A stretch of DNA of 34,064 nt from Actinomycetota bacterium (lineage in GTDB: Bacteria; Actinomycetota; Thermoleophilia; Gaiellales; Gaiellaceae), in contig JAIBJN010000039.1 of NCBI GenBank assembly GCA_020029595.1, forward strand, positions 1 through 34,064, written 5' to 3'. Shown piece by piece: positions 15,945-30,693 of the stretch. Made by a program: the position numbers and the translations under genes. Each line of letters opens with the position of its first letter. Within the stretch, counting starts at the first letter, position 1. The notes beneath the pieces were generated by a model. The model was not told the DNA's origin. It did not search any database and saw only the letters and a program-made list of their open reading frames with translations.

Positions 15945-15967
15945 GCCTGTCTCCTCCGGACGCGCCC

Positions 15968-16169
15968 GGGGTCTGACCCGGGACGTGGCCGTTACGGCGG
16001 GTGCAACGCTCCGATTCCTGTGGAAGCCGGACGAGGCACGTCCTCGAGGCCGTGCTTGCCGCATGGCTCCTGGGCCAGGTGGGACCTGTAGCCTCGAAGG
16101 GCTCGTCTTGCGGCGACGCGCTTCTGTCCACATTCGCGACCGAAAGGGGCACGTCAGGGGTCAGACCCC
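15968..16169. repeat. Inverted pair of REP/MITE-like palindromic ends
   Basis: GGGGTCTGACCC at 15968-15979 recurs in reverse orientation at 16158-16169, and similarity continues inward (GACGTGNCCNTTNCGG on both arms), about 25 of 30 positions matching. Each end is itself a palindrome (GGGTC-T-GACCC and GGGGTC-A-GACCCC). The arrangement is that of a non-autonomous element of about 200 bp or a REP doublet. No transposase is inside. Confidence 0.6.
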
Positions 16170-16181
16170 AGTCGTGGCCGA

Positions 16182-16237: not shown

Positions 16238-16313
16238 GGGCCGTTAGCTCAGCTGGTAGAGCAGGGGACTCTTAATCCCAAGGTCGAAGGTTCGAATCCT
16301 TCACGGCCCACCA
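16238..16313 (+). tRNA. tRNA-Lys (anticodon CTT)
   Basis: A 76-nt cloverleaf with encoded CCA. The acceptor stem pairs GGGCCGT with ACGGCCC, the D arm is in TAGCTCAGCTGGTAGAGC, the anticodon loop is CTCTTAA (anticodon CTT) and the T arm contains GGTTCGAATCC. The closing pair of the anticodon stem (G-A) is irregular. Its 3' half is duplicated downstream, which marks the gene as an integration site. Confidence 0.93.
16276..16309 (+). repeat. attL-like site in the tRNA-Lys 3' half
   Basis: 34 nt, from the anticodon stem to the acceptor stem, repeated at 17329-17362 with one mismatch. GGCAAC-containing direct repeats at 16371-16396 to its right resemble arm-type integrase sites. Confidence 0.65.
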
Positions 16314-16320
16314 TCAGAAC

Positions 16321-16342
16321 TCCCGCAAATGGGGCCTTTTTG
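16321..16342 (+). terminator. Terminator of tRNA-Lys
   Basis: TCCC-GCAAAT-GGGG followed by CC and five T residues. The stem is short, but the T-tract directly behind the tRNA supports it. Confidence 0.5.
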
Positions 16343-16471
16343 TTGTCTTGCTCGCCACCGCTTTGAGTCAGGGGGCAACGGAAGGGGCAACGTACCACCC
16401 AGCCTCTCGTTTCGCGGTGAGGGTACTGCGGCCCCTTCTCTAACAGACGTCACGCAGAGAGCGCCGCCAAT

Positions 16472-16909
16472 TCAGCCGCCGGGGTTGGACGAGTTGAAGA
16501 CAGCGCTGAACGCCCCGCCCATCCAGCCGAGTGCGCCGAGCGCGAAGGCACCGATCATTTCGGGTGCGACGCTGGAGTTGCCGAGCCAAACGAGGAGGTT
16601 CACGAGGCCGACGATCAGGTACGTCAGGACGCCGATTTTCAGGAACGTTGACGCTTTCACGGCGGCCATCAGTGTCGCCGTGCCTCCGGCCGCGCGACCC
16701 TTCTGGATCTCGATGCCTAGCACGCCAGCTGTAGCCGCTGCGACCGCCGAGGACACCAAGCCGGCTACGCCGGCGACTGCCTCGGAGAACTCGAGCTTCG
16801 GGACCGCTGTGGACGGGTCGAACTTCCAGAGCTTCCACGCCACCCAAAGCCAGATCCCGGCGAATAGCGCGAGGAAGACTGCGGCAATGACCTTGAGGAT
16901 GACATCCAT
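16472..16909 (-). CDS. Membrane protein of unknown function (island cargo)
   Basis: A 145-residue protein with about four hydrophobic helices: residues 3-25 (ILKVIAAVFLALFAGIWLWV), about 44-66, about 82-110 (FLKIGVLTYLIVGLVNLLVWL) and about 118-138. There is no signal cleavage site. ATG 16909 has a GGAGGA ribosome site 5 nt away; GTG 16912 is an alternative. It is the only intact gene between the two tRNA-Lys repeats. Holin-like or immunity-type roles are conceivable from the topology alone. I do not recognise a family. Confidence 0.68.
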   Translation of the reverse strand: MDVILKVIAAVFLALFAGIWLWVAWKLWKFDPSTAVPKLEFSEAVAGVAGLVSSAVAAATAGVLGIEIQKGRAAGGTATLMAAVKASTFLKIGVLTYLIVGLVNLLVWLGNSSVAPEMIGAFALGALGWMGGAFSAVFNSSNPGG

Positions 16910-17123
16910 CACTCCTCCGATCGGGTCAACGAGGCGGCGACTGAGCCGCGCCTTGGATCAAGCCAGCGGCGCCGACCCTACAAGGCCATGTCGAGCGCGG
17001 CTAGCTCGCGCACTTCCACAGAGTCACGGCGCGCCTCAGCGCGGCAGAGCCACGGCCTCGGAGCATCGGCGCGTGCTCGCCTCGCGGACGATTCGGGTCC
17101 ACCCACGGAAGGAGTAGGAGAGT

Positions 17124-17328
17124 GTGAACTACGTGCAGAGACTCGCTGGACGGCCACTCGAACGAGGCCCTGATCAAACGGCTGCCCGAGTTCGAGGAGG
17201 ACTGCCCCGACGAGCCGGCGCTGCAGGTGCGCGAGATGGACGACCTTCTCGCGGGGATCGAGGGCTGCGAGCCGAGCTCAAGGTGCTGGAGCGATCAGGA
17301 CTGCTCGAGCGCGTTGCGCGTGAGCGCG
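17124..17328 (+). pseudogene. Decayed ORF inside the tRNA-Lys island
   Basis: A good ribosome site (GGAAGGAG) precedes GTG 17124, but protein-like sequence switches frame. MNYVQRL is in frame 1, then SLDGHSNEALIKRLPEFEE and EPALQVREMDDLLAGIE are in another frame, then AELKVLERSGLLERVARER is back in the first, running into the repeated tRNA end. Charged, helical segments with clean codon bias in each piece suggest a small protein broken by two frameshifts. The family is unknown. The island's repeat cuts its 3' end. Confidence 0.38.
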
Positions 17329-17362
17329 TCCCAAGGTCGAAGGTTCGAATCCCTCACGGCCC
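17329..17362 (+). repeat. Second copy of the tRNA-Lys 3' end (attR or att junction)
   Basis: Matches 16276-16309 at 33 of 34 positions. Downstream it is followed, as at the tRNA, by a stem-loop (AGCCC at 17371 with GGGCT at 17384), CTGTTGTC, and GTCAAC/GGCAAC repeats at 17422-17446. It is not a tRNA gene because the 5' half is missing. Confidence 0.7.
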
Positions 17363-17448
17363 TCACGGAAAGCCCCCGCAATTGGGCTCTCTGTTGTCGG
17401 GAGCGGCACCGTGGGGAACTCGGGTGTCAACGTAGGTGGCAACTAGTG

Positions 17449-17466
17449 ACATCTCGCGCGAGATGT
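17449..17466. promoter_or_regulatory. 18-bp perfect palindrome, operator candidate
   Basis: ACATCTCGCGCGAGATGT is fully symmetrical. It lies 73 bp before the ABM-like gene and just after the arm-like repeats of the second att copy. It could bind a dimeric repressor of that gene. No regulator gene is adjacent. Confidence 0.5.
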
Positions 17467-17539
17467 GAAAGGGTGCCGAGCGGCTGCGAGACCGTCGTGG
17501 ACGGGCCACGAGGTGGAGGACAGCCGAAAGGAGGCGCAG

Positions 17540-17854
17540 ATGCACGGTCGCGTAGCGAGGTACCGATACGGGGGCGACGCGCACGACATCGCTCGACGGG
17601 CGGAAGAGGGGGTGCTGCCGATCTTCCAGGCGCAGCCCGGATTCAAGGCCTACTCGCTCCTCGAGAGCGAGGGGGAGATCATCTCGTTCAGCGCGTGGGA
17701 CTCTGCGGCGAGCGCCGACGCGGCGAGCGCCCTTGCCGCTGAGTGGGTCGCGGAGAACATGGCCGACGAGATCGAGCTCAAGGAGGCTCGCATCGGCGAG
17801 ATCCTCTTCGGCACCGCGCTGGGGGTCAGCACCAAGGCCGGCTCCGCCGCCTGA
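17540..17854 (+). CDS. Small ABM/dimeric alpha-beta-barrel-like protein
   Basis: A 104-residue protein that looks like the ferredoxin-like alpha+beta barrel of the antibiotic biosynthesis monooxygenase superfamily: a first strand (HGRVARYRYGG), a helix (DIARRAEEGVLPIFQAQPG), strands FKAYSLLESEGEIISFSAW, then a helix-rich end. ATG has a strong ribosome site (AAAGGAGG). Members act on small aromatic or haem-like substrates or only bind them; function here is unassigned. It stands alone between the palindrome and a strong hairpin terminator. Confidence 0.62.
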   Translation: MHGRVARYRYGGDAHDIARRAEEGVLPIFQAQPGFKAYSLLESEGEIISFSAWDSAASADAASALAAEWVAENMADEIELKEARIGEILFGTALGVSTKAGSAA

Positions 17855-17951: not shown

Positions 17952-18491
17952 CTAGTAGGCGTTCTTGTAGGCGCCGCCGGAGCGGCCGCGCGGCGCACCC
18001 TCGTGTGCGGAGAGGTCGACGAGCCCGGTGCGTGCAGGGAAGTCGACGTCCGGCGCCGCGATCACGTCGGCCGCCGGGTCCATCGGGTCTGCCGGAACGA
18101 CCAGGTGATGGATCGAAATGCGGCGAACCCCGACTCCCGAACGTCGGCGTAGACGGTCGTCGCGCCGCGCGTCCCGGTGACGGCGACCAGATGTCCTCTA
18201 TTCCGACAGGACACGACGAATCCGCGGCGAGCGGCTCGCGTGGCGAGGATACGGCTGACATGGTCGAGATCGCCGCGCGCGAAGTACAAGCAGCCGTAGT
18301 ACGACTTCGCCTCGCCTGGGAAGCTGCTCGAGCCCCACGAGCATTCGAGCGTCTCGTGATGCGCGGGGGCGACGCTCTCGACGAGAGCCCTCAGCTCGCC
18401 GTTCGGCCAGAGGGCGCGGACGATGAAGAAGCCCGCGACGGCTGTCGCCGCGCGCGCCGGCGCTCGTCCCCCGGTCGAGTGATGCGGACAC
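17952..18491 (-). pseudogene. Hidden gene with two G-run frameshifts, unknown function
   Basis: No single frame spans this gene, but coding-quality sequence runs through it. Frame A holds AGFFIVRALWPNGELRALVE, ETLECSWGSSSFPGEAKSYY and FARGDLDHVSRILATRAARR. At the G4 run (18128-18131) it must shift to frame B, which continues RRISIHHLVVPADPMD, APDVDFPARTGLVDLSAHEG and ends SGGAYKNAY at the stop 17952. A one-base change at the G5 run (18468-18472) would join frame A to GTG 18491, giving about 179 residues. Indels at both G runs suggest sequencing error or a young pseudogene. It follows the TolB-like gene by 50 bp. The family is not recognised. Confidence 0.5.
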
Positions 18492-18541
18492 TTGGCCGCG
18501 AACGCGGCGCGTCCCAGTCGCCCGTTTCGTGCGGACTCTCG

Positions 18542-30413: not shown

Positions 30414-30524
30414 ATGGAGTTCCTCGTCATCGCAGTCATTCTCCTCGTCGGGCCGCTCGCCCTTCTCTACGGCGTGGACTCCCGCGTCGACGAGCGGGGC
30501 TTGCGCGACTGGCGGCGCTTCTAG
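30414..30524 (+). CDS. 36-residue single-pass membrane micro-protein
   Basis: A short gene divergent from the LysR gene. The product begins with a membrane helix (EFLVIAVILLVGPLALLYG), then a charged end VDSRVDERGLRDWRRF. The layout is outside or periplasmic N-terminus and basic cytoplasmic tail. The GATAAT box, the operator-like repeat and clean GC-rich third positions support it as a real gene although it is far below usual gene-calling length. It may be the main target of the LysR protein. I cannot name a family. Confidence 0.55.
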   Translation: MEFLVIAVILLVGPLALLYGVDSRVDERGLRDWRRF

Positions 30525-30525
30525 T

Positions 30526-30693
30526 CGCGGCGGCCTCGGGCCGCTGAAAGAGCGCTTCGACCTAGACGCCGGCGGTCGAGAATCGTCCGCCCAGGTGAAA
30601 GTCGTCCTCGCCTCGGACGAGCTCTCGGGCCACGTGACCGGCCAAGTCGTCGTCGTGGCCGGCGGCGTGGAGGGACGAGTCCTTCACGACTGA
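30526..30693 (+). pseudogene. C-terminal remnant of a short-chain dehydrogenase
   Basis: Reading from 30526 to the TGA at 30691, this frame gives GPLKERFDLDAGGRESSAQV and VVLASDELSGHVTGQVVVVA followed by GGVEGRVLHD. This is the classic C-terminus of an SDR such as a 3-oxoacyl-ACP reductase (LASDxASxVTGQVxxVDGG). The N-terminal three quarters, including the Rossmann and YxxxK motifs, are absent; the micro-protein occupies that place. It has no start codon at the break. It ends just inside the convergent antiporter gene. Confidence 0.6.

Follow-up and report, generated by a model that had tools for sequence, protein, structure and literature searches.

Duplicated tRNA-Lys(CTT) 3' half with twin arm sites, the probable scars of two accreted and decayed integrative elements

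In the 34,064-nucleotide stretch of DNA analysed here (hereafter the window), the 3' half of the tRNA-Lys(CTT) gene occurs twice, and each copy is followed on its right by a related set of repeats. The locus probably records two related elements, an older one (B) and a later one (A), that integrated one after the other into the tRNA gene and of which only scars remain. What the sequence shows directly is the repeat itself, a P'-type arm at the proper distance from each copy, and no P arm, integrase or third core. The window is an entire contig from a fragmented assembly (140 contigs, approximately 88% complete) of an uncultured actinobacterium related to Gaiella; a scan of named genomes places its close relatives in Gaiella and the Gaiellaceae.

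The duplicated core and its right-hand flanks

ARAGORN identifies a single tRNA in the window, and its 3' half (TCCCAAGGTCGAAGGTTCGAATCCTTCACGGCCC) recurs with one mismatch (33 of 34 positions), as the earlier note had seen. The next-best 34-mer across the whole window, on either strand, differs from this core block at 14 positions. This comparison, together with a scan of 399 genomes of the class for the core-plus-doublet pattern described below, rules out a chance origin of the repeat; the scan returns five occurrences, two of them in the window, and its reversed control returns none in the same 399 genomes. The window presents a restored tRNA 3' end on one side of the intervening DNA and a displaced copy on the other. 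The left edge of the displaced copy ends just past the anticodon loop, and the loop sequence CTCTTAA, which displaced cores in intact relatives keep, is missing from it. No third core occurs in the window or in the assembled host genome. Directly upstream of the tRNA lies a 41-nt imperfect inverted repeat (78%; window 15957-16180) with GGGGTCTGACCC / GGGGTCAGACCCC motifs.

The likeness continues past both tRNA-derived cores through a hairpin region, the heptamer TGTTGTC (at 16341 and 17392, with no other plus-strand occurrence in the window) and an arm doublet. Doublet A (GGCAACggaaggGGCAAC) starts 64 nt after the end of core 1 and doublet B (GTCAACgtaggtGGCAAC) 63 nt after the end of core 2, the latter preceded by a weaker third unit, GGGAAC, at 17414. 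The two are the only exact matches to GKCAAC-N4-8-GKCAAC in the 34 kb, on either strand. The order and offset of hairpin, heptamer and repeats described in the earlier note are indeed shared by the two copies; its pair of GGCAAC repeats after each is not, as the second doublet reads GTCAAC...GGCAAC. Identity falls from 97% in the tRNA part to approximately 65% in the flanks (53 of 81 aligned positions; Fisher p = 1.4e-4 for 33/34 against 53/81). In a control for the flank alignment, 2 of 2,000 random window segments score as high, and these presumably overlap the two sites themselves.

Seven other tRNA-Lys sites carry a P' doublet, at 63, 63, 64, 64, 65, 66 and 64 nt from the core end, so that the offsets in the window fall within or at the edge of the 63-66 nt seen in relatives; 23 further tRNA-Lys loci carry none (0/23). 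The strict doublet pattern leaves out genome G099 (locus L050), whose arms are of another type. Judged from sequence, these comparisons support the identification of the repeat as an integration core and of the right-hand repeats as P'-type (integrase-arm) sites.

Table 1. Features of the tRNA-Lys(CTT) locus, in window coordinates.
Feature	Position	Strand	Basis or remark
tRNA-Lys(CTT), integration target, intact	16238..16313	+	ARAGORN
Core copy 1, the tRNA 3' half, presumably restored by inner element A	16276..16309	+	
Putative P' arm of element A: hairpin region, TGTTGTC, doublet GGCAACggaaggGGCAAC (16374-16391)	16310..16391	+	64-nt offset as at intact attL sites of the same tRNA
146-aa membrane-protein-like ORF, probable cargo of A	16472..16912	-	searched in 128 other genomes of the order without a match; no Pfam family
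Possible broken reading frame ending at core 2, candidate remnant of A	17118..17328	+	frames read
Core copy 2, displaced; no anticodon loop, no P arm on its left	17329..17362	+	
Putative P' arm of older element B: hairpin region, TGTTGTC, weak unit (17414), doublet GTCAACgtaggtGGCAAC (17426-17443)	17363..17443	+	63-nt offset; 53/81 identity to arm A
Leader and ABM-domain protein gene (17540-17854), directly after arm B	17448..17854	+	72-76% DNA identity to loci in G109, G060 and G038

DNA between and beyond the cores

The DNA between the cores (16310-17328) is poor in GC: 16314-17328 averages 65.3% against a mean of 70.8%, which places it in the lowest 0.8% of the window. Its membrane-protein-like ORF has no counterpart in viral contigs or phages, and two plasmid matches of approximately 45 nt each were judged to be chance. 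The possible broken reading frame, searched against protein families for an integrase remnant, yields no match. A free attP was not found in IMG/VR, where the core has no match. The earlier note had reported no integrase between the cores, and this absence extends to the whole contig, which contains no match to the tyrosine integrase family PF00589.

To the left of the displaced core, where a P arm would lie, no doublet occurs between 16942 and 17328. Because core 2 has a doublet on its right, none on its left and no CTCTTAA, the 1.05 kb between the cores lacks an attR; and because both doublets of the window lie to the right of their cores, 16310-17328 is not one complete element. Nor does this DNA have the form of a cis-mobilizable element (CIME), which keeps attL and attR without an integrase: an attL-like end is present, and the right end has neither P arm nor CTCTTAA.

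To the right of arm B, homology to other Gaiellaceae loci restarts at 17448 (G109), 17458 (G038) and 17494 (G060) and covers the ABM-domain gene and its leader. In these three genomes the locus has other upstream neighbours and no tRNA. The gene is either what remains of B's cargo or host DNA that a deletion brought next to the arm. Further on, the minus strand at 17955-18538 likely holds a gene split by a frameshift, with no family match. From 19629 to coxA the gene order is largely common with the same-genus genome G001, in which unrelated chromosomal genes precede the shared block. Relative to the window, G001 has two stretches of additional DNA, approximately 4.7 kb at 30519-30601 and approximately 4.1 kb at about 30688.

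Elements at the same tRNA gene in relatives

Three Gaiellaceae genomes have an element in this tRNA gene as well: 15.1 kb long in G043 (locus L047), 3.6 kb in G026 (L048) and 8.2 kb in G012 (L049). At the near core a P' doublet (GTCAACgcaggGTCAAC or GTCAAACaaacgGTCAAAC) lies 63-66 nt off on the right; at the far core a second doublet, the putative P arm, lies approximately 120-135 nt to the left, with none on the right. As far as sequence can tell, this layout is that expected of attL (core-P') and attR (P-core). A tyrosine integrase is encoded inside two of the three elements (G043 and G012), and the 8.2 kb element also carries a phage capsid gene. The 3.6 kb element (L048, 3539-7200) has both att sites and both arm doublets on a contig without a tyrosine integrase match, and by its sequence is a better candidate than the window for an integrase-less mobilizable unit.

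The inward-facing arms of these elements bear out the earlier note's view that two arm sets to the right of their cores are abnormal for one element, and they support the two-element model. So does L050, in which the second core has GGTTAC-type repeats on its left and a different doublet, GGTTGCCAACGTGGTTGCCAACG, on its right; a displaced core flanked by arms on both sides is, from its sequence, a standing tandem. L050 is thus a precedent for the displaced core followed by a further P' arm (17426-17443) in the window. Accretive integration, as the earlier note proposed, fits these data; a surviving array does not, as neither the window nor the assembled genome contains a third core, and no right end of element B, with such a core, was found.

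A second copy in relatives without an insertion, which the earlier note named as a refuting result, was not seen: it is absent from all 15 relatives whose tRNA-Lys has no doublet, some of which reach only 3-5 kb downstream. The contig of same-genus G001 breaks before the tRNA, so that no empty site is seen within the genus, which counts against the model. Elsewhere in the host genome, an integrase (C97) has a GGCAAC doublet at its 3' end and then a displaced tRNA 3' half, which derives from another tRNA 3' end and, by sequence, looks like an intact attR. This combination indicates that such a recombination system occurs in this lineage, and it counts in favour of the model.

Several other loci were recorded alongside. 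In L065 (G010), a diverged second core (3 mismatches) lies approximately 1.74 kb past the tRNA start with a GGCAAC-type repeat on its left, and the tRNA has no P' doublet; the locus is another small remnant. In L047, L048, L051, L061 and L063 the tRNA-Lys stands between wecB and coxBA, in the orientation to these genes opposite to that in the window. Hyphomicrobium sp. NDB2Meth4 (L103, L106, L107, L108, L109) has several displaced tRNA-Lys(CTT) 3' halves, and a GGCAAC doublet lies to the right of one of them; together they may constitute an array in an isolate genome. Two contigs (L102, L105) of one bin labelled Gemmatimonadetes (CALMKE01) carry a Gaiellaceae-type tRNA-Lys core and a near-identical P' arm, and this bin may be mixed or mislabelled.

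Proposed history, rival readings and known systems

We infer the order of events, the deletions and the loss of integrases as follows. The attP core of the older element B would have recombined with the 3' half of the tRNA gene, a step that restored the gene and placed the P' arm of B downstream of it. Element A, with a related P' arm, would next have recombined at the same core, now that of B's attL, restoring the tRNA again and pushing the core and P' arm of B 1.05 kb away. Later deletions would then have taken A's right end with its P arm, crossover and integrase, up to or near 17329, and the whole of B save its P' arm and, perhaps, the gene for the ABM-domain protein. The point at which copy 2 begins on its left counts against this history in that it requires either a deletion ending there or a different crossover point. 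The missing right end of B counts against it too, as does the loss of every integrase and P arm, which leaves the elements without a name. The cargo-like ORF unique in the order and the low GC support the model.

A likeness that runs from the tRNA through the hairpin region into the doublet could also stem from one duplication event that copied the 3' half of the tRNA with approximately 80 nt downstream, or from a second tRNA-Lys gene that has decayed; neither would involve a second element. We consider this unlikely. The tRNA part agrees far better than the flank, and had copy 2 alone been free to change, the expected number of differences there would be approximately seven even in the tRNA part, against one seen (p ~0.005). 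Moreover, the tRNA 5' half is missing at copy 2, copy 2 is closer to the CTT than to the TTT gene, and the doublet represents an arm site that occurs only next to integrated elements. The former second tRNA gene, which the earlier note had held up as a competing explanation, is contradicted by the same step in identity. In the two-element model this step arises because the cores must match the host tRNA, while the arms of the two elements had already diverged.

The two cores do bound approximately 1 kb of low-GC, genome-specific DNA, which the earlier note took for a small island; were it complete, the right-hand arm would be chance or host sequence. This is hardly credible, because the right side shows neither a P arm nor a crossover with CTCTTAA, and because the second doublet has the spacing of a P' arm and belongs to a type absent from the 23 other tRNA-Lys loci. 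We see just as little chance that element B is a large island that starts at 17363 and ends shortly before coxB, near 31.9 kb. coxB does lie 15.8 kb after the tRNA here, against 1.5-2.9 kb in L053, L059, L060, L062 and L066, but no core, arm doublet or integrase occurs up to coxB, and the block shared with G001 has a chromosomal setting there. It is also quite improbable that the very small integrase-less units between tRNA-Lys cores in the Gaiellaceae (1.05 kb in the window, 1.7 kb in G010 and 3.6 kb in G026) make up a class of their own, minimal elements that resident integrases of the GGCAAC/GTCAAC type mobilize in trans.

The two-element locus is a fossil of a known process, and its mechanism is textbook. 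What it adds is documentation that tRNA-Lys(CTT) is used recurrently for integration in an actinobacterial family that has received little study, and a demonstration that, once the integrase is gone, a tandem can be told from a single element by the offset of the arm repeats and the side on which they lie. The intact Gaiellaceae elements (L047, L048, L049) share the tRNA gene, the core and the P' offset with the window, and differ in having both ends, inward arms and single occupancy. In Frankia sp. EAN1pec, the tandem AICEs Fean5518 and Fean5534 with closely related integrases occupy tRNA-Lys, and such tandem arrays are called unstable (PMC3218068). There, as here, two tandem elements share an actinobacterial tRNA-Lys, with related integrases in Frankia and related arm sites in the window; the Frankia elements are recognisable AICEs, whereas att scars alone remain here. 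In accretion as described for ICEs and IMEs, the newcomer recombines into an att site of a decayed element (CIME) already present at the 3' end of the target gene (PMC5704250). Element A would have used a decayed resident's att site in the same manner, but the inner unit here also lacks an intact right att site and is therefore not a CIME. The Dehalococcoides ssrA genomic islands (PMC3146451) likewise show displaced RNA-gene 3' ends repeated in tandem, some of them accompanied by integration modules and others not, and differ in their serine recombinase, their tmRNA target gene and their extent, with islands amounting to as much as 100 kb.
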